Shown: positions 21,678 to 54,596, counted from the first letter of the stretch. The stretch: DNA of 64,000 nucleotides from Acidobacteriota bacterium (GCA_029781975.1 JAKOVQ010000009.1:1-64000), one strand, 5' to 3'. Notes: generated by a model from the sequence alone, not told the origin. Program-made: numbers and translations.

Positions 21678-22172
21678 GCCACGTCCGCGCTCCGGCGGCG
21701 GGACGCCATCGTCCGGCTCGTGCGCGAGGCGCCCGTGAGGTCCCAGGACGAGCTGCAGCGCCTCCTCGAGGGGCGGGGGATCCACGCGACCCAGCCGACG
21801 CTGTCGCGCGACATCCGGGAGCTGGGGCTGGCCAAGACGCCCGACGGGTACGTGGAGCCCGGGGCGGGGGGCGCGGGCCGGCCGGGGGCCGACCCCCGCG
21901 CCGTGGCGCGCCTGGAGCGGGTCCTCCGGGGCTCGGTCCTGTCGGCGAAGCCGGCGGGGAGCCTGGTCGTGGTGAGGACGCCGCCGGCCGAGGCCCATCC
22001 GGTGGCCCACGTCGTCGACGAGGTGGGGCTGCCGGACGTCGTCGGCTCGATCGCGGGAGACGACACCGTCTTCCTCGCCACCTCCGCGCCCGCGAGGGCC
22101 CGCGCCCTGGCCCGCCGCCTGCAGGCCGCCCTCGAGGGGGCGCCGGCTCCGCGCCGGCGCCGCCGCGCCTAG
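21663..22172 (+). CDS. argR: arginine repressor ArgR
   Basis: A 169-residue regulator. The N-terminal winged helix contains the family signature SQDELQRLLEGRGIHATQ and TLSRDIRELGLAK; the C-terminal part ends with VGSIAGDDTVFLAT, the arginine-binding GTIAGDDT-type motif that also drives hexamer formation. With arginine bound it represses biosynthetic genes. It heads the arg operon here and probably controls it through the paired boxes over its own start. The GTG at 21663 has no ribosome site and lies 11 bases after a CATAAT box, so translation may be near-leaderless. The C-terminus is Arg-rich. Confidence 0.92.
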   Translation: MNNHPATSALRRRDAIVRLVREAPVRSQDELQRLLEGRGIHATQPTLSRDIRELGLAKTPDGYVEPGAGGAGRPGADPRAVARLERVLRGSVLSAKPAGSLVVVRTPPAEAHPVAHVVDEVGLPDVVGSIAGDDTVFLATSAPARARALARRLQAALEGAPAPRRRRRA

Positions 22173-22206
22173 GCCGGCCGCCCCGCGGCCGGAAGGAGTG
22201 ATCGTG

Positions 22207-23226
22207 GTGAAGCGTGTCTCTGTCGTCGGAGCGGCCGGCTACTCGGGAGCGGAGCTGGTCCGGATCCTCGCCGCGCACCCGCGCGTCGAGGTCGCCAGCC
22301 TCTTCGGGAGCCCGGGGTCGAAGGGGTGCGCGTTCGAGGCGGTCCACCCCGCGCTCGGCGGGCGGAGCGGGCCCGCCGTCGTCCCGTTCGACGAGGCGGC
22401 GCTGCGGGCGTCCTCGCCCGACGCGGTCTTCCTCGCGACTCCGAACGAGACCTCCGCCTCGCTCGTCCCTTCGCTCCTCGAGGCGGGGCTCCTCGTGATC
22501 GACGTCTCGGGGGCGTTCCGCCTGAAGGACGCCGCCCTCTACCAGGCCTGGTACGGGTTCCAGCACCCGTCGCCGCAGCTCCTCCCCCGGGCCGTCTACG
22601 GGTTGACGGAGCTCTGCGGCGAGGAGCTCGACCGGGCGCGCCTCGTCGCGAACCCCGGCTGCTACCCGACGTCGATCCTCCTCGCGCTCCGGCCGCTCCT
22701 CCCGATCCTCGAGGAGGGGATGCCGGTCGTCGCCGTCTCGGCGAGCGGCGTCTCCGGCGCGGGGAAGCGGGCCGACCTCGCCTACTCGTTCTGCGAGGTC
22801 GCGGGGAGCTACAAGGCCTACGGCGTCGGCGTCCACCGCCACGAGCCGGAGATCCGGCAGGCCCTGGGGCTCCCGGCCGGCTCCCCGTTCGCGTTCGTGC
22901 CGCACCTCCTCCCCGTCGCGCGCGGGATCCTCTCGACGATCCACGTCTCGTTCCGCACCCGGGTCTCCCCGGACGAGGTCGCCGGGCGCTGGGAGCGCGC
23001 GTACGCGGGCAGGCCGTTCGTGCGGGTCCTGCCGCCGGGCCGGCTCCCGGAGCTGAAGGACGTCGTCGGGACGCCGCGGGCCCACCTCGGGAGCGCGCCG
23101 CTCGACGGAGGGCGGCGGGCCGTCCTCGTCTCGGCCATCGACAACCTCCTCAAGGGGGCCGCCTCGCAGGCGGTCCAGAACTTCAACCGCGCCTCCGGCT
23201 TCGCGGAGGAGGAGGGCCTCTCGTGA
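22207..23226 (+). CDS. argC: N-acetyl-gamma-glutamyl-phosphate reductase
   Basis: Third step of arginine synthesis: NADPH reduction of N-acetylglutamyl phosphate to the semialdehyde. The N-terminal GAAGYSGAEL is the nucleotide-binding loop and NPGCYPT contains the catalytic cysteine; SASGVSGAGK and GVHRHEPEI are family motifs. About 340 residues, as usual. GTG codons at 22198, 22204 and 22207 are in frame; the GGAAGGAG site at 22191-22198 best fits 22204 or 22207. It lies 34 bp after argR and its stop overlaps argB. Confidence 0.95.
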   Translation: MKRVSVVGAAGYSGAELVRILAAHPRVEVASLFGSPGSKGCAFEAVHPALGGRSGPAVVPFDEAALRASSPDAVFLATPNETSASLVPSLLEAGLLVIDVSGAFRLKDAALYQAWYGFQHPSPQLLPRAVYGLTELCGEELDRARLVANPGCYPTSILLALRPLLPILEEGMPVVAVSASGVSGAGKRADLAYSFCEVAGSYKAYGVGVHRHEPEIRQALGLPAGSPFAFVPHLLPVARGILSTIHVSFRTRVSPDEVAGRWERAYAGRPFVRVLPPGRLPELKDVVGTPRAHLGSAPLDGGRRAVLVSAIDNLLKGAASQAVQNFNRASGFAEEEGLS

Positions 23227-24002
23227 GCGCGACGGTGGTCAAGCTGGGGGGGAGCCTCCTCGAGAGCCGCCCGCTCCGCGCGGCGGCCCTCGAGGCGATC
23301 GCGACGGCCTGGACGTCGGGCGAGCGGCTCGTCGTCGTCCACGGCGGCGGCAAGCGGATCGACAAGATGCTCGCCGCCCTCGACATCCCGAAGAAGGTCC
23401 AGGGGGGGCTCCGCGTCACCGACGCCGAGACGCTCGACGTCGTGGTCGCCATCCTCTCCGGCCTCGTGAACAAGACCCTCGTCGCCGAGCTCAAGGAGCG
23501 GGGGATCTCGGCCGCGGGCCTCTCCGGCGCCGACGGCGGGACGCTCTGGGCCGAGTTCCACGAGGCGGTCGACGGCGTCGACCTCGGCTTCGTCGGGCGG
23601 CCGGTCAGCTGCGACGCGCGCCTCCTCCGGGCCGTCCTCGGAGCCGGGTTCCTGCCGCTGGTGGCCTCGGTCGCGCTCGGGCGGGACGGGACGCTCCTGA
23701 ACGTCAACGCCGACGCGGCCGCCGCGGCCCTCGCGGTCGCCCTCGGCGCCCGCAAGCTCGTCTACCTCACCGACGTCGAGGGGGTGAGGGACGAGTCGGG
23801 CGAGGTGGCGGACCGCCTCGACGCGGCCGACGTGAGGAGGCTCCTCGGCTCGGAGGCCGTCACCGGCGGGATGCGGCCGAAGCTCGGGTCGGCGCTCGAA
23901 GCGCTCCAGGCGGGCGTGTCGGAGGTCCTCGTCGCAGGCCCGGACCGGCACCGGGCCGCCGTCCTCGAAGGAAAGGGAGGGACGCACCTTGCAGCAGCCT
24001 GA
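23223..24002 (+). CDS. argB: N-acetylglutamate kinase
   Basis: Phosphorylates N-acetylglutamate with ATP in arginine synthesis. The sequence starts VVKLGGSLL (phosphate-binding lysine), has the VVHGGGKRIDKML segment, TLLNVNADAAAAALA, LVYLTDVEGV and a C-terminal GGMRPKLGSAL. It is 259 residues, the usual amino acid kinase size. The GTG start overlaps the argC stop by 4 bp. In organisms with an ArgJ cycle this enzyme is often arginine-inhibited, but the N-terminal helix typical of the inhibited hexameric form is absent, so feedback may act elsewhere. Confidence 0.94.
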   Translation: MSATVVKLGGSLLESRPLRAAALEAIATAWTSGERLVVVHGGGKRIDKMLAALDIPKKVQGGLRVTDAETLDVVVAILSGLVNKTLVAELKERGISAAGLSGADGGTLWAEFHEAVDGVDLGFVGRPVSCDARLLRAVLGAGFLPLVASVALGRDGTLLNVNADAAAAALAVALGARKLVYLTDVEGVRDESGEVADRLDAADVRRLLGSEAVTGGMRPKLGSALEALQAGVSEVLVAGPDRHRAAVLEGKGGTHLAAA

Positions 24003-25200
24003 CGATGCTTCCCGTGACGAGAGCCCGTCTGCCGTCGAGGCCCGCGCCGCCGCCTACCTCCTCCCCACCTACGCCTGGACCCGGTTCCACCCGCGGGACG
24101 GGCGCGGGGCCCGGCTCGTCGACGCCCACGGGAAGGCGTACTGGGACCTCCTCGCCGGGATCGCGGTCAACGCCCTCGGCTACCGGCACCCCGCCCTCGT
24201 GAGGGCGCTCCGGAAGGAGGCGGGCGACCTCCTCCACGTCTCGAACCTCTTCTACCAGCCCGCGCAGGCGGAGCTCGCGGAGAGGCTCGTCACGCTGTCG
24301 GGGCTCTCTCGGGCCTTCTTCTGCAACAGCGGGACCGAGGCGAACGAGGCGGCGCTGAAGTTCTCGCGGCTCCTCGCTCCCGGCAAGCCCGGCGTCGTCG
24401 CGCTCGAGAACAGCTTCCACGGCCGGACGTTCGGCGCCCTCTCGATGACCGGGAACGAACCCTACCGGACGCCGTTCGAGCCGCTCGTCCCGGGCGTCAC
24501 CTTCGTCCCCGCGAACGACGTCGCGGCGCTCCGGGCCGCGGTGACGGAGAGGACCGGGGCGATCTTCCTCGAGCCGATCCAGGGGGAGGGGGGGATCGTC
24601 CCGCTGAGCGACGCCTTCCTCCGCGCCGCCCGCGAGAGGGCCGACGCGGTCGGCGCGGCCCTCGTCTTCGACGAGATCCAGTGCGGGCTCGGCCGGACGG
24701 GGTTCCTCTTCGCCTTCCAGCGGTCCGGCGTCGTCCCCGACGTCGTCACGCTCGCCAAGCCGCTCGGCGGCGGGCTCCCGCTCGGCGCGGTCCTCACCGG
24801 GCCGAGGCTCGAGGGGCTCGTCAGGCCCGGCCACCACGGGACGACGCTCGGCGGCAACCCCGTCGCCTGCCGCCTCGGCCTGACCGTCCTCGACGAGCTG
24901 GTCGAGGGGGCCCTCGTGGCGCGGGTCGCCGACGTGGGCCCCTGGTTCGGCAGGAAGCTCGCCGCCCTGGCGCGCCGCTCCCCGGCGATCGCCGAGGTGA
25001 GGGGCTGCGGCCTCATCTGGGGGATCGAGCTCGACCGCGAGGCGGCGCCGGTCCAGGCGAAGCTCCTCGAGAAGGGGTTCGTCGTCGGGACGGCCCGCAA
25101 GAAGGTGATCCGCCTCCTCCCTCCCTACGTCGTCCCGAAGGCCGCCCTGGCGGCGTTCGTCCTCGCCCTCGAAGAAGCGCTGAAGGAGCCGGTCGCATGA
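23989..25200 (+). CDS. argD: acetylornithine aminotransferase
   Basis: PLP enzyme that makes N-acetylornithine from the semialdehyde with glutamate as amino donor. It has FFCNSGTEANEAALK, the FHGRTFGALSMTG segment, FDEIQCGLGRTG and the Schiff-base lysine K257 in LAKPLGGGLPLGA, then GTTLGGNPVA. The length of 403 residues is standard. It starts with TTG at 23989 after a GGGAGGGA ribosome site, overlapping the end of argB by 14 bp, and its stop overlaps the argG ATG. Such enzymes often double as succinyldiaminopimelate aminotransferase in lysine synthesis. Confidence 0.93.
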   Translation: MQQPDDASRDESPSAVEARAAAYLLPTYAWTRFHPRDGRGARLVDAHGKAYWDLLAGIAVNALGYRHPALVRALRKEAGDLLHVSNLFYQPAQAELAERLVTLSGLSRAFFCNSGTEANEAALKFSRLLAPGKPGVVALENSFHGRTFGALSMTGNEPYRTPFEPLVPGVTFVPANDVAALRAAVTERTGAIFLEPIQGEGGIVPLSDAFLRAARERADAVGAALVFDEIQCGLGRTGFLFAFQRSGVVPDVVTLAKPLGGGLPLGAVLTGPRLEGLVRPGHHGTTLGGNPVACRLGLTVLDELVEGALVARVADVGPWFGRKLAALARRSPAIAEVRGCGLIWGIELDREAAPVQAKLLEKGFVVGTARKKVIRLLPPYVVPKAALAAFVLALEEALKEPVA

Positions 25201-26462
25201 AGACGAAGAACGGAAGGCAGGTCAGGAAGGCCGCCCTCGCCTACTCGGGGGGGCTCGACACCTCGATCATCATCCCGTGGCTGAAGGAGACCTACGGCTG
25301 CGAGGTCGTCGCGGTGGCGGTGGACGTCGGCCAGGCGGAGGAGACGGCGGGCCTGAGGGAGAAGGCGCTCGCCACCGGCGCGTGCGACTTCCACCTCCTC
25401 GACGTGAGGGAGGAGTTCGCGAAGGAGTACCTCTTCCGCGTCCTGCGCGCCGGAGCGGTCTACGAGCACGAGTACCTCCTCGGCACCTCGACGGCGCGGC
25501 CGCTCATCGCGAAGAAGCAGGTGGAGGTGGCGCTCGCGACCGGGTGCGACGCGCTCTCGCACGGCTGCACGGGGAAGGGGAACGACCAGGTCCGGTTCGA
25601 GCTGGCCTACCAGGCGCTCGCGCCCGAGCTGGCGGTCATCGCCCCGTGGCGCGAGTGGGAGATCACCTCGCGCGAGGAGGCGATCGACTACGCGGCCGCG
25701 CGGAAGATCCCCGTGACCGCGACGAAGAAGGAGCCCTACTCGCGCGACCGGAACCTGTGGCACATGTCCCACGAGGGGGGGCCGCTCGAGGACCCGGCGT
25801 TCGAGCCGGAGGAGTCGATGTTCAAGCTGACCGTCGACCCGCGCAAGGGGCCGGACGAGCCCGAGCGGGTGACGATCGGCTTCGAGAAGGGGTTCCCGGT
25901 CTCGGTGAACGGCGAGCCGCTCTCGCCCGCCCGGCTGATCGAGACGCTGAACGCGATCGCGGGGCGGCACGGCGTCGGGCGCGCCGACATGGTCGAGAAC
26001 CGGCTCGTCGGGATCAAGTCGCGAGGCGTCTACGAGACCCCCGGCGGGACGCTCCTCGTCCAGGCCCTCCGCGCCCTCGAGACGCTCACGCTCGAGCGCG
26101 ACGCGATGCACGAGAAGGAGCGGCTCGCGCTCCGCTACGCCGAGCTCGTCTACTACGGCCAGTGGTTCAACCCGCTCCGCGAGGCGCTCGAGGCCTTCAT
26201 GGAGAAGATCACGCAGTCCGTCACCGGCCAGGTCACGATGAAGCTCTTCAAGGGCTCGGCCATCGTGGTCGGCCGGACGGCCGACGACTCGCTCTACTCC
26301 GCCGACCTCGCGTCGTTCAACATGACGGGCTACACGCCGCAGGACGCCGCGGGCTTCATCCGCCTCTTCGGGCTCCAGACGCGCGGGCGCAAGCGGCTCT
26401 CGCCCCGCTCCGCCGAGGCGATGGCGGCGGGCGAGCACCTCCGCCTCGAGCCGTGGGGCTGA
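25197..26462 (+). CDS. argG: argininosuccinate synthase
   Basis: Joins citrulline and aspartate with ATP to give argininosuccinate. The N-terminal ALAYSGGLDTSI is the ATP pyrophosphatase P-loop; GCTGKGNDQVRFE, MSHEGG and GRADMVENRLVGIKSRG are family signatures. It is 421 residues long, slightly above the ~400 average, with a Lys/Arg-rich start and a small C-terminal extension. It overlaps argD by 4 bp. Its aspartate could be supplied by the aminotransferase-PEPC fusion at 51.0-54.6 kb; that link is inference. Confidence 0.95.
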   Translation: MKTKNGRQVRKAALAYSGGLDTSIIIPWLKETYGCEVVAVAVDVGQAEETAGLREKALATGACDFHLLDVREEFAKEYLFRVLRAGAVYEHEYLLGTSTARPLIAKKQVEVALATGCDALSHGCTGKGNDQVRFELAYQALAPELAVIAPWREWEITSREEAIDYAAARKIPVTATKKEPYSRDRNLWHMSHEGGPLEDPAFEPEESMFKLTVDPRKGPDEPERVTIGFEKGFPVSVNGEPLSPARLIETLNAIAGRHGVGRADMVENRLVGIKSRGVYETPGGTLLVQALRALETLTLERDAMHEKERLALRYAELVYYGQWFNPLREALEAFMEKITQSVTGQVTMKLFKGSAIVVGRTADDSLYSADLASFNMTGYTPQDAAGFIRLFGLQTRGRKRLSPRSAEAMAAGEHLRLEPWG

Positions 26463-26474
26463 GGCGGTGACGCC

Positions 26475-27896
26475 GTGAAGAGGCGCCAGCTCTGGGGCGG
26501 CCGGTTCGCGGAGGGGCCGGCGGAGGTCCTCCGGCGCTTCAACGACTCGTTCGCCTTCGACCGCGAGCTCCTCTCCGTCGACGTCGAAGGCTCGGTCGCG
26601 TGGGCCGAGGAGCTCGGGCGGTCGGGGGTCCTCCGTCCGGCCGAGGCCCGGGCGATCGCCCGCGGCCTCCACGCGGTCCGGGAGGAGTGGGCCGCCGGCG
26701 GCGCGCGCGCCGCGGACGCGGCGGTCGCCGCGGGCCACGAGGACGTCCACTCCTACGTCGAGGCGGCCCTGGCGGAGAAGCTCGGGCCTCTCGCGGGGAA
26801 GCTCCACACGGGGCGGTCGCGGAACGACCAGGTGGCGACCGACGTGAGGCTCTACCTGAAGGGCGCCCTCGCCGAGCTCGAGGCGGGGGCCCTGGAGCTG
26901 GCCGGTGTCCTGGCCGTCCGCGCCGCCGACGAGGCCGCCACCCCCATGCCGGGCTACACGCACCTGAAGCGGGCCGAGCCCGTGACGTTCGGACACTGGG
27001 CGCTGGCCTATGCCGAGATGCTCCTGCGCGACGCCGGCCGCGCGCGGGACGCGGCCGAGCGGGCCGACGAGTGCCCGCTCGGGTCGGGAGCCCTCTCGGG
27101 GACGCCCCTCCCGGTCGACCGGGCCCGCCTGGCCGCATCGCTCGGCTTCGCCCGCCCCACGGCCAACTCCCTCGACGCGGTCTCGGACCGCGACGCCGCC
27201 GCGGAGTACCTCTTCGCGGCGGGCCTCCTCCTCGTCCACCTCTCGCGCCTCGCGGAAGACCTGATCTTCTTCACGTCCGACGAGGTCCGTTTCGCCGACC
27301 TCCCCGACCGGCTCGCCACCGGCTCCTCGCGGATGCCCCACAAGAAGAACCCCGACGTCCTCGAGCTCGTCCGCGGGCACGCGGGGCGTGCGGTGGGGGA
27401 GCTGGCGGGGCTCCTCGCCCTCCTGAAGGGGATCCCGCTCGCCTACGACAAGGACCTCCAGCTCGACAAGGAGCCCCTCTTCCGGACGCGCGCGACGCTC
27501 GCGGCGGCGGTCCCGGCCCTCTCGGCGCTCCTCGCCGGGCTGACGCTCCACCGCGAGAGGATGCGCGCGGCCGCGTCGGACGACGCCCTCCTGGCGACGG
27601 AGCTGGCCGACGCCCTGGCGCGCCGCGGGGTCCCCTTCCGCGAGGCGCACGACGTGGTCGGGCGGCGGATCGCCGCCGCCGAGGAGGCGAAGGCGTCCCT
27701 CGCGGGCCTCGGCCCGGGCGACGGCGTCACCTCGGCGGACCTCCGCGCCCTCGACGTGGACCAGGCCCTCGCCCGCCGCGCGGCCGTAGGGGGGACCTCG
27801 CCGAGGCGGGTCCGCGCGGCGGCCCGGGCCGTCCTCCGGAGGATCGAGCGGCAGAGGAGGCAAAGGAGGCGGACGGGGCGAAGGAGGCGTCCATGA
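26475..27896 (+). CDS. argH: argininosuccinate lyase
   Basis: Splits argininosuccinate into arginine and fumarate, the last step of the pathway. It begins with QLWGGRFAEGP, has HTGRSRNDQVATD and the superfamily signature GSSRMPHKKNPD with the flexible catalytic loop. It is 473 residues; the last ~20 are very Arg/Gln-rich and run into the argJ ribosome site, and are probably dispensable. GTG start with GAGGCGGTGA upstream, 12 bp after argG; stop overlaps argJ by 4 bp. Confidence 0.95.
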   Translation: MKRRQLWGGRFAEGPAEVLRRFNDSFAFDRELLSVDVEGSVAWAEELGRSGVLRPAEARAIARGLHAVREEWAAGGARAADAAVAAGHEDVHSYVEAALAEKLGPLAGKLHTGRSRNDQVATDVRLYLKGALAELEAGALELAGVLAVRAADEAATPMPGYTHLKRAEPVTFGHWALAYAEMLLRDAGRARDAAERADECPLGSGALSGTPLPVDRARLAASLGFARPTANSLDAVSDRDAAAEYLFAAGLLLVHLSRLAEDLIFFTSDEVRFADLPDRLATGSSRMPHKKNPDVLELVRGHAGRAVGELAGLLALLKGIPLAYDKDLQLDKEPLFRTRATLAAAVPALSALLAGLTLHRERMRAAASDDALLATELADALARRGVPFREAHDVVGRRIAAAEEAKASLAGLGPGDGVTSADLRALDVDQALARRAAVGGTSPRRVRAAARAVLRRIERQRRQRRRTGRRRRP

Positions 27897-29074
27897 AGCT
27901 CCCGAAGGGGTTCCTCGCCTCGGGGGTCGAGGCCGGCATCGGCAAGAAGCGCCCCGACCTCGCCCTCCTCGTCGCCGAGGGGGGGGCGAACGCCGCGGCG
28001 GTCTTCACGCGGAACAGGTTCCTGGCCGCGCCCGTCGTCGTCTCGAAGGCAGCGCTCCGGAGGAGCGGCGGGCGGGTCCGCGCGGTGGTCGTCAACAGCG
28101 GCTGCGCGAACGCCGTGACCGGCGCCGCGGGCCTCGCCGCGGCACGTGCCGTCCAGCGGCGGGCCGCCGGGCTCCTCGGCTGCCCCGCCCGCGAGGTCTT
28201 CGTTGCCTCGACGGGGGTGATCGGCGTCCTCCTGCCGGACGAGAAGATCCGCGCCCGCCTCCCGGACGCCGTGGCGCGCCTCTCGGCCGGGGGCCTGGCG
28301 GCGGCCTCCCGCGCCATCCTGACGACGGACGCCGGGCCCAAGGTCGCGCAGGCGGCCTACTCGTGGAACGGCCGCCGCGGCCGCGTCGTCGGCTTCGCCA
28401 AGGGGGCCGGGATGATCCACCCCGACATGGCGACGATGCTCGCGTTCGTGACGACCGACGCGCCGGCCGCCCCCGCGGCGCTCAGATCGATCCTGAGGTC
28501 GGCGGTGGGGGAGAGCTTCAACGCGATCTCCGTCGACGGCGACACCTCGACGAACGACACCGTCCTCCTCCTGGCGTCGGGGACGCTCGGCGGCCCCGGG
28601 ATCGCGGCCGCGGAGGAGGCTCCCGAGCTGGCCCGCGCCGTCGCCGAGGTCTGCCGCCGGCTCGCGTGGATGATCGTCCGGGACGGCGAGGGGGCGACCC
28701 GCGTCATGGACGTGGAGATCACCGGCGCGGCGTCGGAACGGGAGGCGAGGCTCGCGGCGCACGCCGTCGCGACGTCGCCCCTCGTGAAGACGGCGCTTCA
28801 CGGCGGCGACCCGAACTGGGGCCGGATCCTCGCGGCGATCGGGAGGAGCGGTGCCCGCGTCTCCACGCGCCGGGTCTCCCTGAAGGCGGGCCCGGTCGTC
28901 CTCGTGGAGTCGGGCGCGCCGACGGCGTACCGGGAGGCGGCCGCCGCGAAGGTCTTCGCGCGCGAGCGCGTTCCGATCACGGCCGACCTCGGGGTGGGGT
29001 CGGCCCGCGCCCGCCTCCTGGCCGCGGACCTCGGTCCCGCCTACGTCTCGCTGAACGCCGACTACCGGAGCTGA
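27893..29074 (+). CDS. argJ: ornithine acetyltransferase / N-acetylglutamate synthase
   Basis: Moves the acetyl group from N-acetylornithine back to glutamate, giving the cyclic, acetyl-saving form of the pathway. The self-cleavage site is in HPDMATML with the nucleophile T181; SGCANAVTG, NAISVDGDTSTND and HGGDPNWGRI are family motifs. Length 393 residues is usual. Whether it is bifunctional (also using acetyl-CoA) cannot be read directly, but no argA is present in the cluster, which favours it. It follows AAGGAGG and overlaps argH; it is the last gene of the operon. Confidence 0.94.
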   Translation: MKLPKGFLASGVEAGIGKKRPDLALLVAEGGANAAAVFTRNRFLAAPVVVSKAALRRSGGRVRAVVVNSGCANAVTGAAGLAAARAVQRRAAGLLGCPAREVFVASTGVIGVLLPDEKIRARLPDAVARLSAGGLAAASRAILTTDAGPKVAQAAYSWNGRRGRVVGFAKGAGMIHPDMATMLAFVTTDAPAAPAALRSILRSAVGESFNAISVDGDTSTNDTVLLLASGTLGGPGIAAAEEAPELARAVAEVCRRLAWMIVRDGEGATRVMDVEITGAASEREARLAAHAVATSPLVKTALHGGDPNWGRILAAIGRSGARVSTRRVSLKAGPVVLVESGAPTAYREAAAAKVFARERVPITADLGVGSARARLLAADLGPAYVSLNADYRS

Positions 29075-39660: not shown

Positions 39661-42600
39661 ATGAGCAGGACAGCCGTCCCGAGATCGGCCGGGACGACCT
39701 CGGCGAAGTACGTCTACTCCTTCGGCGGCGGCTCCGCCGAAGGGAACGGCAGCCAGAAGGACCTCCTCGGCGGCAAGGGAGCGAACCTCGCCGAGATGGC
39801 GCGGATCGGGCTCCCCGTCCCGCCCGGCTTCACGATCACCACCGAGGTCTGCACCTGGTTCTACGCCCACGGCAGGAGCTACCCGAAGGGGCTCGAGAAG
39901 GACGTGGCGGCGCACCTCGCCCGCGTGGAGAAGCAGCTCGGGAAGCGGTTCGGCGACCCGAAGGACCCGCTCCTCGTCTCCGTCCGCTCCGGGGCGCGCG
40001 CCTCGATGCCCGGGATGATGGACACGATTCTCAACCTCGGCCTGAACGACGTGACGGTCGAGGGGCTCGCGGCCGCGTCCGGCAACCCGCGCTTCGCGTG
40101 GGACTGCTACCGGCGGTTCGTGGCGATGTACGGCGACGTGGTCCTCGAGCTCAAGCCGGTCGGCAAGCACGAGCGCGACCCGTTCGAGGTGATCCTCGAG
40201 GCTACGAAGGGGCGCTACGGCGTCCACCTCGACACTGAGCTCCCCGTCGAGGCGCTCAAGGAGCTCGTCGCCGCGTTCAAGTCGGCGATCCGGGAGAAGA
40301 CCGGGCACGTCTTCCCCGAGGACCCGACGGCCCAGCTCTGGGGGGCCATCGGAGCCGTCTTCGGCTCGTGGATGAACGAGAGGGCCATCGTCTACCGCCA
40401 GCTCAACGGGATCCCGGAGAGCTGGGGGACCGCGGTCAACGTCCAGTCGATGGTCTTCGGCAACCTCGGGGACGACTGCGGCACCGGCGTCGCCTTCACC
40501 CGGGACCCCGCCACGGGCGAGAACGTCTTCTACGGCGAGTACCTGATCAACGCCCAGGGCGAGGACGTCGTCGCCGGCATCCGGACCCCGCAGAAGATCG
40601 CCACCCTCGGCAAGGCGATGCCGAACGTCTACGCGCAGCTCCTCGAGATCCGCCAGGCGCTCGAGAGGCACTACCGCGACATGCAGGACGTCGAGTTCAC
40701 GGTGGAGCGCGGGCGCCTCTTCATGCTCCAGACGCGGACCGGCAAGCGGACCGGCTTCGCCGAGGTCCGGATCGCCGTCGAGATGCAGCGCGAGAAGCTG
40801 ATCACCCCGGAGGAGGCGGTCCTGAGGGTCAATCCCGACTCCCTCAACCAGCTCCTCCGGCCCATCTTCGACCCGGTCGCCAAGCGGGCCGCGGTGGAGG
40901 AGGGGCACCTCCTGGCGAAGGGGCTCAACGCGGGCCCGGGCGCGGCCAGCGGCCGCGTCGTCTTCTCGGCGCAGGACGCGTTCGAGTGGGCGAGGCGGGG
41001 CGAGAAGGTGCTCCTCGTGAGGGAGGAGACGAGCCCCGAGGACATCAAGGGGATGAACGCCGCCGAGGGGATCCTCACCGCCCGCGGAGGGATGACCTCC
41101 CACGCGGCGCTCGTCGCGCGCCAGATGGGCAAGGTCTGCGTGGTCGGCTGCGAGGCGCTGAGGGTCGACTACGCCGAGCGCTGCATGACCGTCAGGGGTG
41201 ACGCGAAGAACCGCGTCGTGATGGAAGGGGACTGGGTGTCGATCGACGGCTCGACGGGCGAGGTCCTCGAGGGGCGGATCGCCACCCGGCCCTCCGAGGT
41301 CCTCCAGGTCGTCCTCGAGAAGAGCCTCGCCCCCGAGGCGAGCCCGGTCTACACCCTCTACGCCACCCTCATGGGCTGGGCCGACAAGGTGAGGCGCCTG
41401 AAGGTCCGCGCGAACGCCGACCAGCCCGACCAGGCGTCCAACGCCGTCGCCTTCGGCGCCGAGGGGATCGGCCTCTGCCGGACCGAGCACATGTTCTTCG
41501 GCGGCGACCGGATCACGGCCGTCCGCGAGATGATCCTCGGCGACTCGGTCGAGGCGCGGGAGAAGGCGCTCGCCAAGCTCCTCCCGATGCAGAGGGGGGA
41601 CTTCGAGGGGGTCTTCCGCGCGATGGGCCCGCGCCCGGTGACGATCCGGACGATCGACCCGCCCCTCCACGAGTTCCTGCCGCACACGGCCGACGAGCAG
41701 GCGGCCGTCGCCCAGACGCTCGGCGTCTCGCCCGCGGCCGTCGCCCAGAAGGTGAACGAGCTCCACGAGATGAACCCGATGCTCGGCCACCGCGGGTGCC
41801 GCCTCGGGATCGTCTACCCCGAGATCACGCGGATGCAGGCGCGGGCCATCCTCGAGGCGGCCTGCAACGTGAAGAAGGACGGGGTCGACGTGAAGCCGGA
41901 GATCATGATCCCGCTCGTCGGCCACGTGAACGAGCTGAAGGACCAGGAGAAGGTCGTCCGCGAGACCGCCAGGGACGTCTTCGCCAGGGCCGGCATCACG
42001 GTCGACTACCTCGTCGGGACGATGATCGAGCTCCCGCGCGCCGCCCTGACCGCCGACGAGATCGCCGTGGTGGCCGAGTTCTTCAGCTACGGAACCAACG
42101 ACCTGACGCAGACGACCTTCGGCCTCTCCCGCGACGACGCCGGGAAGTTCCTCCCCGAGTACGTCCGGCGCGAGATCCTCCCGGCCGACCCCTTCGAGAA
42201 GCTCGACCAGACCGGCGTCGGGAAGCTCGTGAAGATGGGCGTGGAGCTGGGGCGGAGCACGCGGCGCGGCCTGAAGGTCGGCATCTGCGGCGAGCACGGC
42301 GGCGAGCCGTCGTCGGTGGAGTTCTGCCACCGGACGAACCTCGACTACGTCAGCTGCTCCCCGTTCCGGATCCCGATCGCCCGCCTCGCCGCCGGACAGG
42401 CGGCCGTCCGCGGCGGCGCGACGATCTCCGGCCGCCCCGCGAAGCCGGCGGCGAAGGGAGCGGCCAGCGCCCCGTCGACGGCCAAGCCGGTCGCGAAGCC
42501 GAAGCCCGTGCATGAGTCGAAGACGGCGCCGAAGAAGGCCTCGAAGCCCGCGAAGAAGGCCGTGAAGAAGGTGGCGAAGAAGGTCGCGAAGGCCGCGAGC

Positions 42601-42693
42601 CCCGCCCCTCGGGCCAGGGGACCCCTCGCGCGCAGGCCCGCCTCCGGGCGGAAGGCCGCGGCGAAGGCTCCCGCGAGGAAGGGAAGGAAGTAG
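39661..42693 (+). CDS. ppdK: pyruvate, phosphate dikinase with a histone-H1-like C-terminal tail
   Basis: Interconverts pyruvate, ATP and Pi with PEP, AMP and PPi. It has [14 protein letters not shown] (ATP-grasp start), [17 protein letters not shown], the phospho-carrier H481 in [12 protein letters not shown], and the PEP-binding barrel with [16 protein letters not shown] and [10 protein letters not shown]. The enzyme core ends near residue 924, as in other PPDKs; a further 86 residues made almost only of Lys, Ala, Pro and Arg follow in the same frame. The ATG follows GGAGGCACTCG. It is monocistronic, ended by a perfect 34-bp palindrome. Likely links glycolysis/gluconeogenesis to the PEP carboxylase fusion at 51 kb. 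Confidence 0.95.
42433..42690 (+). other. Lys/Ala/Pro-rich H1-like tail within ppdK
   Basis: Codes for residues 925-1010 of the dikinase. It contains repeated KKA/KKV and AKP units ([16 protein letters not shown], then [15 protein letters not shown]), like eukaryotic histone H1 tails and AlgP/HctB-type bacterial proteins. The reading frame is open throughout and the tail ends just before the terminator, so it is part of the gene, not a read-through. Confidence 0.85.
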
Positions 42694-47878: not shown

Positions 47879-49485
47879 CGGGGCTCCGGTCCGCGGCGCG
47901 CGCGCTTTTCGAGCTCCCGCCGGTCCTTCTCCGCGCGGGCCGCGGCGGCCGAGTCCCCCAGCCTCCCATAGGCGGCCGCCGCGATCGCGAGGAGCTCGGG
48001 GGAGTCCGGGTTGTCTCGTCGCGCGGTCTCGAGCAGGGCCGGGACCTCTCCGCTCCGTCCCTCTTGCTCCAGGACCCTCGCCAGCGTATCCACCGCGGCC
48101 GGCCATCCCGGGCGCTCGCGGAGGGCGAAACGGAGGTGGAGCTCCGCCTCTCCGAGCTGACCCGATGCCGCCAGGACCGTCGCGAGGTTGTATCGGACGA
48201 ACCAGCTCGAGGGTGAGACCAGGACCGCATTCCGGTAGAGCGTGAGGCTGTCCCTCCAGACGGGGAGCTGGAGCGACGTGAGGGCGGCGAAGCCGAGCGC
48301 CGGCGCACCGGCGAGGAGCGAGCCTGCCAGGAGCCTCGGCCGCGCCGGGAGGCCCTCGAGGAGCGCGGCGACGCCAAAGACGGCCGCGATCACGAGGCCG
48401 ACCGACGGGAGGTAGGAGTAGCGGTCGGCCGTCGACTGCCAGCCGGCCTGGACGAGACCGCTCACGGGTGCCAGGGCGACGAGGTAGAAGAGCCAGCCGA
48501 CGAGGACGGCGGGGCAGCGCCGGCGGAGCCCGAAGGCGAGCGCCGTCAGCGCGACGAGGAGGGCCGTGGCGGCGAGGAGCGCCGGGAGGGCGGGCGGGGC
48601 GCCGATCGGGTAGAGGCAGGCGAGGCCCACGGGCCGCAGGCTCTTCCCGAGGTACCAGACCGCCCCGTCGACCGCGAGCGACAGCCTCCTCCCCGGGGGG
48701 ATCGAGCCGAGCGACCAGACCGTCGCCGCGTCGAGCGACGCGAGGACCGTGAGGGCCGCGGAAGCGGCCGCGAAGGGGACGAACGGCAGCTTCTCCCGGA
48801 GGAGCGGCCACCCGGACGCGCGGAGCCCGGCGAGCGTGGGCTCGAGGCGCCGGAAGGGCCAGACGTCGAGGAGGAGGAGGAGGGCGGGGAGCGTCACCAG
48901 CATCGGCTTGGCGAGGAGCGCCAGGGCGAAGAGGGTCAGGGCCGCAGCGTACGCGGATCGCTTTCGCGTCACGACGTAGCGGCTCCACGCCAGGAGCGTG
49001 AGCATCGCGAGGAAGACGGAGAGGACATCCTTGCGTTCGAAGATCCAGGCGACCGATTCGACGCGGAGGGGGTGGACGGCGAAGAGGAGCGCGGCGGCCC
49101 AGGAGGCGCCAACCCTCCGGGAGGCTCGCGCCAGGAAGACGAAGAGAAGCGCCGAGCTGCCGGCGTGAAGGAGGACGTTGATCGCGTGACGCGGTCCCGG
49201 CGCGGTCCCGAAGAGCTCGAAGTCGAGCATGTGAGTCAGCCAGGTCAGCGGGTGGTACTGGACCGACGAGGGGCCGAACGCCCAGAGGACGCCGCGCCCG
49301 GTGAGGCCGGCGCGGACCCAGGGGTTGGCGAGGAGATAGTAGCGGTCGTCGAGGGCCACGAAGTCGAAGGTGACGGCCCGGCCGAAGAGCGCGAGGACGA
49401 TGCCGGCGAGCGCCAGCGCCGGGAGGGCCGTCGTCCGCCCGGGCCCGGCGCCGCTCTCAGACAAACTTGATCCGCGCGGCTGCAA
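47875..49485 (-). CDS. polytopic membrane protein with TPR tail (TMTC/GT-C-like)
   Basis: A 536-residue protein with about ten to twelve hydrophobic helices, then tetratricopeptide-like repeats (about 420-520: WFVRYNLATVLAASGQLGEAE, cited here by WFVRYNLATV, and SPELLAIAAAAYGRLGD). Conserved features are FVALDDRYYL with paired Asp in the first external loop and HPLRVESVAWIFERKDVLS. These are hallmarks of the TMTC-like family related to GT-C glycosyltransferases that use lipid-linked sugars. The only starts are TTG codons (49485 or 49467), overlapping the upstream gene. Possible role: transferring sugars to protein or lipid outside the membrane. Confidence 0.8.
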   Translation of the reverse strand: MQPRGSSLSESGAGPGRTTALPALALAGIVLALFGRAVTFDFVALDDRYYLLANPWVRAGLTGRGVLWAFGPSSVQYHPLTWLTHMLDFELFGTAPGPRHAINVLLHAGSSALLFVFLARASRRVGASWAAALLFAVHPLRVESVAWIFERKDVLSVFLAMLTLLAWSRYVVTRKRSAYAAALTLFALALLAKPMLVTLPALLLLLDVWPFRRLEPTLAGLRASGWPLLREKLPFVPFAAASAALTVLASLDAATVWSLGSIPPGRRLSLAVDGAVWYLGKSLRPVGLACLYPIGAPPALPALLAATALLVALTALAFGLRRRCPAVLVGWLFYLVALAPVSGLVQAGWQSTADRYSYLPSVGLVIAAVFGVAALLEGLPARPRLLAGSLLAGAPALGFAALTSLQLPVWRDSLTLYRNAVLVSPSSWFVRYNLATVLAASGQLGEAELHLRFALRERPGWPAAVDTLARVLEQEGRSGEVPALLETARRDNPDSPELLAIAAAAYGRLGDSAAAARAEKDRRELEKRARRGPEPR

Positions 49486-50917
49486 AGGCCGCCATCCGGA
49501 GGAGAAGGAGACCGTGGCGCCACCGTTTGATGTTCGTCTCCCCGTAGACGCGCTCGCGGTAGCGGACGGGGACCTCGACGATGTCGAGGCCCAGCTTGGC
49601 GGCCCCGAAGAGGAGGTCGAAGTCGCCGAACGGGTCGAAGTCGCCGAGCTGCTTCCGTCCCTCCGAGATCCGCTCCCAGTCGTCCCGCCAGACCGCCTTC
49701 GTCCCGCAGAGCGTGTCGCGGAGTGGCTGGCCGAGGAGGAACGTGAAGGCGGCGCAGAAGGCTTTGTTCCCGAGCAGGTTGAGGAACCTCATCGCCTGCC
49801 GCTCCATCGGGTAGACGAGACGGACGCCGTTCACGAGCTCTCCCGTCCCCTCGCGGAGCACCTTCACGAAGCGGGGGAGGTCTTCCGGGGGGACGGTGAG
49901 GTCTGCGTCGAGGATGACGAGGATCTCCCCGGAGGAGCGGTCGAAGCCGAGCCGGACCGCGTCGCCCTTCCCGCGCCCCTCCTGGACGAGGAGGCGCGCG
50001 CGTCGCGACGGGTGCGCCGCGATCTGCCGCTCGATCTCGGCGCGCGTCCCGTCGGTGGAGTGTCCCTCCACGAAGACGAGCTCCGCGTCGGCTCCGAGCA
50101 CCTCCGTCCGCTCGAAGACGCTCCTGACGTTCCCCTCCTCGTTCCGCGCCGGCACGATCACCGACACTGCGGGACGGACGGTCGCGGCGAGACGCGGCCC
50201 GCGGGCGCGGACGACCGCGAAGTTGGCGACCGCGAAGAGCCGGAAGGGCCAGAGCTTGACGAGGACCTCGTCGGCGAAAGCTGCGAGGAGGGGGACCGGG
50301 AGCGGGAGCAGCACCTCGGTCCACCGCTTCACGGCCTTCAGCTTCGCCAGCTCGAGCAGGTTGTGGACGTCCTCCCCCGTCAGCCAGTTCTGCTCGAGGA
50401 CCTGCTTCGTCAGGCCGAGACGCCGCGCGAGGCGGAGCGGCCACTCCCAGAGGTGGCTGTAGACGTTGAAGACGATCCGCGTCCGCGGCGTCGCGAGGCG
50501 GGCAACCGCCTCGAGGCACCCCTGGACGTCCCAGAGGTCGTTGAGGAGGTCCGACAGGACGATGGCGTCGAACGGCCCCTCGAGCCCGCCGACGTCGTGG
50601 ACGTCGCCCCGGACGAACCGGAGGCCGGGGTGGCGGCGGGCCGCCCGCGCGAGGGCGGCCGCCGAGAAGTCGACGCCGACGCCGAACGACGGCTCGAGGG
50701 AGGCGAGGAGGTCCCCCGTGCCGCAGCCGAGCTCGAGGACCCTGAGCCCCGGCGGGACGACCTGCCTGTAGACCCGCTGGAGGCGGCGCCGGTAGGCGTC
50801 GCCCGGCGCATGCCAGCGCGCGCTCCCAGCGCCGACGGAGTCCCAGCGCGCGATCCTCTCGCGCGTATAGAGGATCCGGGCACGGTCGGCCTCGGCGGCG
50901 GCACCGGGCTCGTTCAT
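49457..50917 (-). CDS. fused SAM methyltransferase - family 2 glycosyltransferase
   Basis: A 486-residue two-domain protein. Residues about 40-240 are a class I methyltransferase (VLELGCGTGDLLASL, GVGVDFSAAAL, DAIVLSDLLND). Residues about 248-486 are a GT2 glycosyltransferase (VSVIVPARNEEGNV, GKGDAVRLGF, VILDADLTVPPEDL with the DxD-type metal site, and LCGTKAVWRDDW), close to dolichol- or polyprenyl-phosphate sugar transferases. The GT part matches what the downstream TMTC-like protein would need: a lipid-linked sugar donor. First gene of the minus-strand glycan operon. Confidence 0.87.
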   Translation of the reverse strand: MNEPGAAAEADRARILYTRERIARWDSVGAGSARWHAPGDAYRRRLQRVYRQVVPPGLRVLELGCGTGDLLASLEPSFGVGVDFSAAALARAARRHPGLRFVRGDVHDVGGLEGPFDAIVLSDLLNDLWDVQGCLEAVARLATPRTRIVFNVYSHLWEWPLRLARRLGLTKQVLEQNWLTGEDVHNLLELAKLKAVKRWTEVLLPLPVPLLAAFADEVLVKLWPFRLFAVANFAVVRARGPRLAATVRPAVSVIVPARNEEGNVRSVFERTEVLGADAELVFVEGHSTDGTRAEIERQIAAHPSRRARLLVQEGRGKGDAVRLGFDRSSGEILVILDADLTVPPEDLPRFVKVLREGTGELVNGVRLVYPMERQAMRFLNLLGNKAFCAAFTFLLGQPLRDTLCGTKAVWRDDWERISEGRKQLGDFDPFGDFDLLFGAAKLGLDIVEVPVRYRERVYGETNIKRWRHGLLLLRMAAFAAARIKFV

Positions 50918-51005: not shown

Positions 51006-54000
51006 CTACGCCCCCCTGCTCCCGCGCAGCTTCTCGAGGGCGACGAGGCGCTCGATGGCGTCGAGCTCGAGGTCGTCCTTGCCGAGCTCCCTCAGGCGCG
51101 ACCACTCGCGGCGGAGCTCGCGCGACAGGGCCTCGGGGAGCGAGCGGAGCCATCCTTCGATCCTCAGGTCGACGAACTCGCGCTTCTCCTCGATCGTCAG
51201 CTCGCGAGCGAGGAGGAGGCGGGTGGCGTCCTCGGCGTCGACGAGCCCCTGGAGCACCGTCCAGCGGTCCCCCGGACGCTCGGCGCAGAGGGCCGCGAAC
51301 GAGACGCTCGACGTCTCGCGGATCAGCTCCTCCTCGCGCGTCGTCCGGCTCTCGTGCTCCTTCGTCTCGTCCCAGCTCTCCGAGTCCTCGGCGAGCCAGC
51401 GGAGGTACTCCATGGCGAAGAGGCTGGTCGGCAGGACGAGGTCCTCGCGCGTCCGCGCGTCGACCCAGAGCGCCGCGGCGGCGCGGAGGCACCGCCGCGC
51501 GGTCGTCTCGGCCAGCTTCTTCCCGAAGACGAGGGCGGCCGATTCCTTCACGAACGACGGGAGCTCCGTGGCGACGATCTCGCGGTAGCCCGGGACGTGC
51601 CGCTCGAGGAGGACGGCGGCGCGCCGGTCGAGGGCGACGAGGTCGCTCGTGACGGCCGGGAGGCCGAGCGTCGTGCAGCCCAGGTTGTAGACGATGGCGC
51701 GCGGCAGGGTGACCCCCTCCGGCCACGCGTCGCGCAGGTCGCGGTTGTCGGGCAGGGTCGTCCCGCCGCCCCACTCCTCGGGGTAGGTCGGGATCGAGCG
51801 GCCGTAGCTCACCGAGCCGGTCGCGCGGATCCGCACCCGCGTCTGCGGGACGAGTCCGCCGAACGGCGCGAGGAGGGGCGCGATCCGGAGGAGAGTCTCC
51901 GTGTGGGACCTCACCCCGGCCTCCAGGAGCTTGAAGAAGGCGTCGCGGTCGGCGGCGGAGACGGAGGGGAAGGGGGACGGCTCGGCGACGGCGGCCCGGA
52001 ACGCCGCGGCGAGGCGCCCGGCCTCGGCGGGCGCGTCGGAGCGGATCCCCTGCATCGTGACGCCGTCCGCGCGCGCGAACTGCCGGATGACGCCCGGGTG
52101 GTCGGGGTCGAAGCCGCCCCGGAAGCCGGCCCGCCCCGCGCCGACGAGGAACGTGACGGACGGCGCCGGCTCTCCGGCCTTCCGCGCGAGGAGGGCGAGG
52201 CGCCGCTGGGCCTCCTCGCGTCCCGCCAGCGCGAGCGTGCAGGCGGCGTCCGTGGCGATCTTGCCGCTCTGCTCGGCGGTGTCGGACATCGCGACGAAGA
52301 CGCGGACGACGGCCTCGTCGCGGTCGAACCGGGTCCGGAAGACGGACGCCGTCGGGACGTCCGGCAGGCCGCGTCCCCTCTCGAGGGCGAGGTAGAAGGC
52401 CTCGAGGAACTCGGGGAGGTGCGCGAGGGCGCCGACGTTCTCGCAGAGGGGGACGAGGCGGACGCGCGAGACCTTCTCGATCAGCGCGGCGCGGCGGCCC
52501 TCCTCCACCCTCGGGGCGAGGAAGGCGTCGCCGTGGCCGTCGTCGGCGAAGAGGCTCGCGATGGCGGCGCGGTAGAGCGTCCCGATCTTGACCACGGCGC
52601 CGATCTCCGCTCCGGAGTTGACCTGCGGGACGGTCACCTCCGGGAGGGCGTTCTGGACGGGCGTGACCCCGACCTTCTCGCAGGCGAGGTGGAAGAGGAC
52701 GTTCGCGCGCGCGACCGAGGCGAGGATCTTGACGATCTTCTCCTCGTCCTGCTCGATGAAGGGGTTCGGGACGCGGAAGAGGAGGTGGCGGTCCTCGCCC
52801 GGGACGACGCCGTGGCGGAGGAGCGCGAGGACGACCTTCTCGGGGAGGTCGAGCCACTCCGGGCTGATCTGCCGCCCCTCGAAGTCGAGGAGGACCTCGC
52901 TGCACGGGCCGAGGAGGTCCGCGATCGTCTCCTCGTACTCGAGCCGCGCCTCGACGAGAGGGTTCCACTCCAGGTGCTTCAGGGCGAGCCGCGCGCGGTC
53001 CGGAGCCCCGGCGGGAGCCGACCGGAGGGCCCGCTCGAGCTGCTCGGCGCGGTGGGAGGTGGAGTCGGGGTGCTTCGTGCCGGTCAGGCGAAGGGTCTCG
53101 TGCCGCGGGTCGAGGAGGAACCTCTTCCGGGCGGCGGCGAACGCCTTCGGGTCGAGGCCGTCGAGGGCGTCGTAGCCCTCGGCGGTGCAGACGCTCTCCC
53201 AGACGGCGTCGAGGGGCGACCGCGAGGCCGCGGCGGCGGCCGCGGGGGCGCTGGAGCCGAGGCGCCCCTGCTCCGTGATCCGCGCGCGGACGCGGTCGAT
53301 GAAGACCGCCAGCTCCTTGACGTCCTTCGAGCCGTAGGAGAGGCGCTGCCAGGTGCCGTAGCGGGCCGCGTCGCTCCCCGCGAAGGCGACGAACGGGATC
53401 CCCCCGACGCCGCCCGAGAGGAGGAGCTCGAACGCGTCGACCGAGTCCTTCACGACCGCCCTCTCGTGGACGCCGTTCCGGAGCCGGTCGAACGGCTCGC
53501 CGACGAGGCCGGGGAAGGCGAGGGGCGCGTAGAAGGTCCCGCCGAAGTCCGTCCTCTCGACGCCCAGGGAGGCCAGCTCGTCCGCGGCCCCGGCCATGAA
53601 GTCGCGCCGCTCGCGCATGTAGGGCGACGGGCGGCGGAGGACCGCGAGCGGGCTCTGGAGCGCCGCGAGGGCCCAGTCCTGCGCGAGCGTCGAGGGGGTG
53701 GCGACGAGCCAGGCGGAGAGGTTCGCCAGGATCTCCCGGGCCCTCACGCCGTTCGCGCGGATCTGGTCCGAGATGACCATCCAGCAGGCGCGGGCGCCCG
53801 TGGAGGCGCCGAACATGTCCATCTTCGAGAGGCCCGAGAGGGAGACGACCCAGTCCCGCCACTCGGGGTCGGCGAAGGCGGGGTTGACGAACCAGCCGAC
53901 GTAGTCGAGCCGCTGGTAGACCGAGTCGTAGAGGACGTAGGCCCGGCGCCTCACGGCGACCCGGACGAGCTCCTCGACGAGGGCGCGCGGGTAGACGCGG

Positions 54001-54596
54001 CCCGTCGGGTTGTGGGGGTTGTTCAGGATGACGGAGGAGATCCCCCCCTTCGCGAGGAGGCGGTCGAGCTCCTTCGGGTCCGGGAGGAAGTCGGGAGCCG
54101 ACGTCGGGAGCTCGACGAGGGCCTTCCCCGCCCGCTCGACGTACCAGTCGTACTCCCAGCTGGGGCGGGGGACGACGACCCCCGACCCGTCGGCGCCGAG
54201 GACCTCGAGGACCATCGCGAGGCCGGAGCGGGTCCCGGGGGTGAAGAGGACCTCGTCCGGGAGGAAGCGGACCTGGGAGGCGGGGTAGTCGAGGAGGCCG
54301 TCGCGGTTGAAGAAGTCGGCGACCTCGCTCCGGACGTCCATCCGCCCCACCGCCGGGCCGTAGCTGTGGACGGTGTTCCGGGTGATCCGCTGGGCGGCCC
54401 GGACCACCTCCGGGTGGGGGGCGAAGTCGGCGTTCTTGTAGTCGCCCTGGGTCAGGTCGAGCGCCCCCTCCTGCTGGACCCTCCTCGAGAAGAGGCGGAC
54501 GAACGGCTCCGGCGTGGAGAGGGCGCGGACGGAGAGGCACCTCTCCTGCTGAGGCGCCGCGGCGGCGGATCCGGGGGACGCTGTCTCTGGCTTCAC
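51006..54596 (-). CDS. aminotransferase (class I/II) fused to archaeal-type PEP carboxylase
   Basis: A single 1196-residue frame with two enzymes. Residues about 30-445 are a PLP aminotransferase: NNPHNPTG (193-199), LYDSVY, and the Schiff-base lysine K258 in SGLSKMDMFG with the following STGAR. An Ala-rich linker (448-458) leads to a region (about 500-1000) that matches the short archaeal-type PEP carboxylase: DFEGR (571-575), FRVPNPF (607-613), EVTVPQVNSGAE, VPLCENV, MSDTAEQSG (770-778), GAGRAGFRGG (819-828) and LPRAIVYNLGCTTLGLP. A helical ~190-residue extension ends it. Together the two could turn PEP, bicarbonate and an amino donor into aspartate. GTG start after GGGAGAG. The PEPC assignment is by motif order, not by alignment. 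Confidence 0.78.
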   Translation of the reverse strand: MKPETASPGSAAAAPQQERCLSVRALSTPEPFVRLFSRRVQQEGALDLTQGDYKNADFAPHPEVVRAAQRITRNTVHSYGPAVGRMDVRSEVADFFNRDGLLDYPASQVRFLPDEVLFTPGTRSGLAMVLEVLGADGSGVVVPRPSWEYDWYVERAGKALVELPTSAPDFLPDPKELDRLLAKGGISSVILNNPHNPTGRVYPRALVEELVRVAVRRRAYVLYDSVYQRLDYVGWFVNPAFADPEWRDWVVSLSGLSKMDMFGASTGARACWMVISDQIRANGVRAREILANLSAWLVATPSTLAQDWALAALQSPLAVLRRPSPYMRERRDFMAGAADELASLGVERTDFGGTFYAPLAFPGLVGEPFDRLRNGVHERAVVKDSVDAFELLLSGGVGGIPFVAFAGSDAARYGTWQRLSYGSKDVKELAVFIDRVRARITEQGRLGSSAPAAAAAASRSPLDAVWESVCTAEGYDALDGLDPKAFAAARKRFLLDPRHETLRLTGTKHPDSTSHRAEQLERALRSAPAGAPDRARLALKHLEWNPLVEARLEYEETIADLLGPCSEVLLDFEGRQISPEWLDLPEKVVLALLRHGVVPGEDRHLLFRVPNPFIEQDEEKIVKILASVARANVLFHLACEKVGVTPVQNALPEVTVPQVNSGAEIGAVVKIGTLYRAAIASLFADDGHGDAFLAPRVEEGRRAALIEKVSRVRLVPLCENVGALAHLPEFLEAFYLALERGRGLPDVPTASVFRTRFDRDEAVVRVFVAMSDTAEQSGKIATDAACTLALAGREEAQRRLALLARKAGEPAPSVTFLVGAGRAGFRGGFDPDHPGVIRQFARADGVTMQGIRSDAPAEAGRLAAAFRAAVAEPSPFPSVSAADRDAFFKLLEAGVRSHTETLLRIAPLLAPFGGLVPQTRVRIRATGSVSYGRSIPTYPEEWGGGTTLPDNRDLRDAWPEGVTLPRAIVYNLGCTTLGLPAVTSDLVALDRRAAVLLERHVPGYREIVATELPSFVKESAALVFGKKLAETTARRCLRAAAALWVDARTREDLVLPTSLFAMEYLRWLAEDSESWDETKEHESRTTREEELIRETSSVSFAALCAERPGDRWTVLQGLVDAEDATRLLLARELTIEEKREFVDLRIEGWLRSLPEALSRELRREWSRLRELGKDDLELDAIERLVALEKLRGSRGA

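Follow-up and report, generated by a model that had tools for sequence, protein, structure and literature searches.

This study concerns a gene in a 64,000-nucleotide stretch of DNA from an Acidobacteriota bacterium (GCA_029781975.1 JAKOVQ010000009.1:1-64000), called the window below, in which a class I/II aminotransferase and a domain related to phosphoenolpyruvate (PEP) carboxylase (PEPC) are encoded as one polypeptide. The gene lies on the minus strand at positions 51006-54596 and forms a single open frame of 1196 codons with a GTG start, zero internal stops and a purine-rich GGGAGAG shortly 5' of the start; codon-based gene calling, with the fusion gene itself in the training set, selected this frame with identical boundaries. 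Pfam searches placed PF00155 at residues 46-342 (E 2.1e-31) and PF14010 (PEPcase_2) at residues 547-1023 (E 1.6e-30; 106.6 bits, the gathering score being 25), both matches lying far above the gathering thresholds of their families. The uninterrupted frame reported in a first-pass annotation of this DNA was thus borne out, as was the PF14010 match that it had proposed to look for, and all the motifs that it had quoted were located (NPHNPTG, K258 within SGLSKMDMFG, FRVPNPF, MSDTAEQSG, GAGRAGFRGG and LPRAIVYNLG). The active-site arginines and metal ligands of PEPC are kept in the alignment. We hold with very high confidence that the fusion and its intact active sites are real. An assembly artefact or a frameshift joining two genes was rejected because independent assemblies contain the fusion again at full length, with 67-89% identity, and a chance open frame in DNA rich in guanine and cytosine (GC) was rejected because the ratio of nonsynonymous to synonymous substitution rates (dN/dS) between close homologues shows purifying selection.

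The N-terminal half has the features of an intact class I/II aminotransferase, as first annotated: in addition to the PF00155 match it carries the lysine that binds pyridoxal phosphate (PLP), K258, the pyridine-nitrogen aspartate D224 and the arginine for the substrate alpha-carboxylate, R418, and Asn193, Asp224, Tyr227, Lys258, Arg269 and Arg418 are invariant in the aligned fusions. Its nearest solved proteins are the aspartate aminotransferases (AspATs) of Thermus thermophilus (E 2.2e-23). In a locally gap-free part of the alignment, the invariant Arg123 falls opposite Lys101 of the Thermus enzyme (Lys109 in pig numbering), a residue that recognises the distal carboxylate; a K-to-S change is seen at this position in the 1b5o sequence. 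By the aligned ranges, the counterpart of Arg123 in Arabidopsis prephenate aminotransferase should be Lys169, which is altered in 5wmk. An arginine at this place is consistent with a dicarboxylate substrate. The assignment of oxaloacetate-to-aspartate conversion therefore stands in part: the Thermus enzymes are nearest and Arg123 falls on Lys101, but no curated AspAT model came over its cut-off (NF041091, 71.8 of 550 bits; PRK06107, 56.1 of 617 bits). The best partial NCBIfam matches of the N-terminal domain, all below cut-off, were to GntC, to an alanine aminotransferase and to a mixed set, and a Lys or Arg is frequent at position 123 among other aminotransferases sampled from the genomes studied, so that the residue is weak evidence of specificity. 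Because Lys or Arg is common there and no equivalog reaches its cut-off, we infer the specificity for aspartate, and oxaloacetate and aspartate are plausible candidate substrates. Among those genomes, the free-standing proteins closest to the first domain of the fusion are two aminotransferases, L016 in genome G010 and L018 in genome G032 (30-33% identity), both with GARP at the Arg123 position.

For the C-terminal half, the sole solved relative found by sequence was 3odm, an archaeal-type PEPC from Clostridium perfringens (E 1.3e-18 with the profile), to which it is about 19% identical. As TIGR02751, the NCBI equivalog model for archaeal PEPC, scored 101 bits against a cut-off of 146.05, this half would be classed as a divergent relative and not as a textbook archaeal PEPC. 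Canonical PEPC (PF00311) gave no match in the fusion protein at E <= 0.1, while a profile-profile comparison with four canonical PEPCs (probability 3%) carries no weight as a test of homology, both alignments being shallow; its sole aligned stretch pairs PLCEN with PLFET and SDTA with SDSA. In a joint alignment, His509 (HPDS), Glu719 (PLCEN), Asp772 (MSDTA), Arg826 (FRGG) and Gln849 are common to 18 fusions, 3odm and the four canonical PEPCs; the alignment is good around these residues, and the N-terminus of 3odm was separately confirmed. Arg608, Arg852, Arg920, Arg922, Arg933 and Arg966 are the same in the fusions and 3odm, Arg966 being claimed against 3odm alone, since the canonical rows are misaligned near it. 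The aligned catalytic residues are invariant across 18-19 fusions, and their roles (carboxylation His, metal ligands, phosphate- or bicarbonate-binding Arg) are presumably those established for the E. coli and maize enzymes. The GAGRAGFRGG loop corresponds to GCGSLPFRGHF in 3odm, where Arg822 is replaced by Ser. The label of archaeal-type PEPC given by the first-pass annotation is hence supported by PF14010, the fold and the catalytic residues and qualified by the low identity to 3odm and the TIGR02751 score. We infer the PEPC reaction of this domain from knowledge of the family, and the predicted activity is likely.

A structure model of residues 457-1196 (740-residue construct; predicted local distance difference test score, pLDDT, 71; predicted template modelling score, pTM, 0.72) superposes on residues 1-537 of the 3odm chain with a Z score of 25.1 and a root-mean-square deviation of 3.0 Å over 473 of 525 residues. 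Maize and Arabidopsis PEPC are matched at about Z 15-19 over construct residues 41-740, reaching their C-terminal ends, whereas pyruvate phosphate dikinase and pyruvate kinase, with related barrels, match just the first ~420 construct residues (Z 15-16). Because the model superposes on the whole of 3odm and on the C-termini of canonical PEPCs, the helices at residues 1011-1196 are predicted to be the end of the PEPC fold; calling them an unexplained extension of ~190 residues was wrong. Insertions make the PEPC domain (residues 499-1196) ~160 residues longer than 3odm. A new domain in the C-terminal extension was considered and rejected on this superposition, and PF18908 (DUF5663), which matches there at E 0.024, was discarded as too weak. 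The full-length model had low confidence (pLDDT 63.8), and the relative placement of the domains was not read from it.

Selection differs by region. Comparing the window gene with four homologues gave dN/dS values of 0.08-0.13 for the aminotransferase, 0.20-0.34 for the PEPC core (residues 466-1010), 0.11-0.31 for the C-terminal part (1011-1196) and 0.40-1.03 for the linker (441-465), dS being uncertain at the GC content of these genes. Invariant columns make up 57% of the aminotransferase, 35% and 34% of the two PEPC stretches and 4% of the linker. Conservation is highest in the aminotransferase (78-93% identity), and the Ala-rich linker of ~25 residues is hypervariable (39-68%). Both enzyme halves are under purifying selection, and the linker alone drifts.

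Table 1. Features of the aminotransferase-PEPC fusion gene, in window coordinates.
Feature	Position	Strand	Evidence
Whole fusion gene	51006..54596	-	1196 codons, GTG start, GGGAGAG upstream
Residues 22-440, class I/II (fold-type I) aminotransferase	53277..54533	-	N193, D224, Y227, K258, R269, R418 invariant in 19 homologues
Lys258, PLP Schiff-base lysine	53823..53825	-	Invariant
Arg123, candidate binder of substrate side-chain carboxylate	54228..54230	-	Invariant; aligns with Lys101 of Thermus AspAT
Residues 441-465, Ala-rich hypervariable linker	53202..53276	-	39-68% identity; dN/dS about 0.4-1.0
Residues 466-1196, predicted PEP carboxylase domain	51009..53201	-	Residues 499-1196 superpose on whole 3odm chain
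His509 of HPDS motif	53070..53072	-	Aligns with catalytic His of TAHPTE (canonical PEPC) and TQHPDN (3odm)
Glu719 of RLVPLCEN, metal ligand position	52440..52442	-	Alignment with 3odm and canonical PEPCs
Asp772 of MSDTA, metal ligand position	52281..52283	-	Alignment with 3odm and canonical PEPCs
Arg822-Arg826 of GAGRAGFRGG	52119..52133	-	Arg826 aligns with PFRG (3odm) and RGG (canonical PEPC); Arg822 is Ser in 3odm
Arg966 of LPRAI	51699..51701	-	Aligns with PRAI of 3odm
Residues 1011-1196, C-terminal helices, predicted part of PEPC fold	51009..51566	-	Structure superposition

The full-length fusion was found in at least 19 further genomes, from Acidobacteriota, Gammaproteobacteria, Myxococcota, Bradymonadales and Riflebacteria. 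The carriers include relatives in the same family, one other genus of the class, and metagenome-assembled genomes (MAGs) of several other labels (Gammaproteobacteria, Steroidobacteraceae, Lysobacterales, Archangium, Deltaproteobacteria, Bradymonadales, Vicinamibacterales, Riflebacteria); all titled carrier records are MAGs, with no cultured isolate among them. Eighteen aligned homologues are 67-89% identical to the window protein, and both PF00155 and PF14010 were matched by 19 of 19 aligned fusion rows. The fusion is rare in the sampled phyla, occurring in 6 of 396 Acidobacteriota genomes, in 3 of 195 genomes of the phylum to which locus L048 belongs and, among 398 sampled Pseudomonadota, solely in the genome on which that sample was centred. 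A scan of the 396 Acidobacteriota genomes and the 195 of the L048 phylum with six exact peptide patterns turned up no unfused relative for the PEPC half, archaea and Firmicutes lying outside the profile sampling; every full-length relative found was a fusion of the 1196-residue type and not a stand-alone subunit as in archaeal-type PEPC. No homologues of the PEPC half were found on plasmids or phages. Maximum-likelihood analysis put the five Pseudomonadota copies together in a single clade (99/96) that lies within the Acidobacteriota, an arrangement which suggests one transfer, with errors of MAG binning as a possible alternative. PF14010 was matched in 65 of the sampled Pseudomonadota genomes; all but the one fusion were short, weak matches in frames of ~860-1290 codons, the size of canonical PEPC, and were set aside. 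Besides the intact copy on C183, genome G001 has another copy (C229:21422-22277) that is broken and shortened; its pieces are 72-85% identical, the middle is missing and there is one stop, so that it looks like a decayed or misassembled paralogue.

The host genome (G000), which is 96% complete, has no match to canonical PEPC (PF00311) and no pyruvate carboxylase PYC_OADA domain, and for this reason the fusion is its sole recognisable PEPC. Around the fusion, a glycogen phosphorylase gene lies upstream, and just downstream a single frame (49457-50917, minus strand) combines a methyltransferase domain with a glycosyltransferase domain of family 2. The fusion has the character of a metabolic gene standing on its own. 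Elsewhere in the window, a gene for pyruvate phosphate dikinase, a PEP-node enzyme (PF01326, PF00391, PF02896), is located ~8 kb from the fusion at 39661-42693 (plus strand), and an apparent arginine biosynthesis cluster, recognised by eye from the translations of ArgR, ArgC, ArgB, ArgD, ArgG, ArgH and ArgJ, spans 21720-29074 (plus strand); ArgG uses aspartate. In another region of the host genome (locus L082, C27:312286-315035), the gene for an ATP-dependent PEP carboxykinase (PEPCK) adjoins a gene for an aminotransferase in which the GAKQ motif of Thermus-type AspATs is present, a pairing that repeats in five other carriers of the fusion (G001, G004, G005, G011, G023) and forms a second link between PEP or oxaloacetate and transamination, made of two separate genes.

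The fusion is probably, in our estimation, a soluble bifunctional enzyme of central metabolism that converts PEP, bicarbonate and an amino donor into aspartate. The C-terminal domain (residues ~499-1196), with a proposed site formed by His509, Glu719 and Asp772, and Arg826 and Arg966, would use PEP, bicarbonate and a divalent metal to give oxaloacetate and phosphate, and the N-terminal PLP site would then convert oxaloacetate and an amino donor, probably glutamate, into aspartate and a 2-oxo acid. Both aspartate as the product, in which our confidence is moderate, and glutamate as the donor are put forward more tentatively than the PEPC reaction. Oxaloacetate is scarce and unstable, and the short Ala-rich tether would provide 1:1 stoichiometry and closeness, so that oxaloacetate would be drawn towards aspartate. 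The first-pass proposal that one polypeptide makes aspartate from PEP has support in two intact active sites, while its oxaloacetate/aspartate specificity has the more conditional standing described above. Several observations weigh against this reading: the low identity to 3odm and the shortfall on TIGR02751; the AspAT models below cut-off and the frequent Lys or Arg at position 123; the presence in the host genome of GTP-dependent PEPCK, ATP-dependent PEPCK and isocitrate lyase, which offer other means of handling oxaloacetate; the occurrence of canonical PEPC in some fusion carriers; and the lack of conserved operon partners, except between close relatives, among the compared loci, a set that excludes the lower-GC L044, L048 and L078. 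The fusion is not the sole conceivable source of oxaloacetate in its host.

One alternative is that the PEPC is active and the aminotransferase serves another substrate pair (pyruvate/alanine, aromatic or arginine-derived), in which case the protein would not be aspartate-making. The mixed partial matches led by GntC and an alanine aminotransferase fit this, as do the common Lys or Arg at position 123 in the sampled aminotransferases and the readiness with which class I/II aminotransferases, from what is known of the family, switch substrate. Yet the nearest solved relatives are AspATs, fusion to an oxaloacetate-making enzyme makes oxaloacetate the strongest prior, and the aminotransferase half is the most conserved, and we regard another substrate pair as unlikely. 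Still less probable is a C-terminal domain that keeps the PEPC fold and carries out another reaction or a regulatory role, for example by binding PEP or oxaloacetate to control the aminotransferase: the His, both metal acids and the conserved Arg are all retained and invariant across phyla, and the host genome is without a detected canonical PEPC or pyruvate carboxylase, although the distance from 3odm, the equivalog score, the faster evolution of the PEPC half, the loop difference at Arg822 and the canonical PEPC of some carriers would agree with such a change.

It is about an even matter whether both activities are real and the fusion merely secures 1:1 co-expression or co-oligomerisation, with oxaloacetate joining the general pool. 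This view, which has about the same chance of holding as of failing, overlaps with the bifunctional aspartate-forming enzyme that we prefer, as channelling is not required there, and it competes solely with the claim of channelling. Aminotransferases of this family are known as dimers. PEPCs are known as tetramers (PMC8100219), and a dimer family and a tetramer family can assemble without a shared tunnel; the hypervariable linker points in the same direction. Because the linker is free to drift, its sequence argues against a built-in tunnel formed by it, and the channelling of oxaloacetate proposed by the first-pass annotation found no support; our confidence in it is low. The most far-reaching reading, a PEP-to-aspartate polypeptide that would be dedicated in its hosts to anaplerosis and aspartate formation and in which oxaloacetate would pass directly from one domain to the other, is doubtful.

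Both halves can be compared with known enzymes. Archaeal-type PEPC (PF14010, TIGR02751; 3odm) shares the whole-chain fold, the catalytic His, Glu and Asp and most Arg positions, and is a stand-alone subunit of 55-60 kDa (PMC8100219), whereas the fusion has, besides the differences in identity, length and model score given above, its PEPC domain placed behind an aminotransferase. With the Thermus AspAT (1bjw/1bkg) and the plant prephenate aminotransferase (5wmh) it shares the PLP lysine and the substrate arginine, and with the former a basic residue at the Lys101 position, at ~25% identity; unlike them it carries a 730-residue PEPC domain. Canonical bacterial and plant PEPCs match the C-terminal half in structure and at the His, Glu, Asp, Arg and Gln positions, but they are longer, have no aminotransferase, and their PF00311 model does not match the fusion. 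In Mycoplasma penetrans, an aminotransferase is fused to methionyl-tRNA synthetase (PMC7694997), a precedent for joining an aminotransferase to an enzyme so that what one domain makes is the substrate for its partner; the partner and the amino acid are different, and here the aminotransferase would consume its partner's product. No described aminotransferase-PEPC fusion was found in the literature searched, with subscription papers and database architecture lists outside the search, in agreement with the earlier statement that no protein of this kind was known: a review of the PEP-pyruvate-oxaloacetate node (PMC8100219) contains neither the word 'fusion' nor such a protein, and a paper on PF14010 evolution (PMC3521007), searched for such terms, contains none. 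The protein is an undescribed, conserved union of two known enzyme families, in which the architecture is new and the families are not. Annotation pipelines are likely to label it as an aminotransferase or as a PEPC, missing the other half.

Central metabolism varies most at the PEP-pyruvate-oxaloacetate node. The fusion could serve as a natural part for aspartate-producing strains, and as a clean system for asking whether oxaloacetate passes on within a fused pair. A natural PEPC-aminotransferase fusion would be one way to tie carbon fixation at the PEP node to nitrogen assimilation, and it predicts that aspartate may be the product leaving the node in several uncultured bacterial groups.

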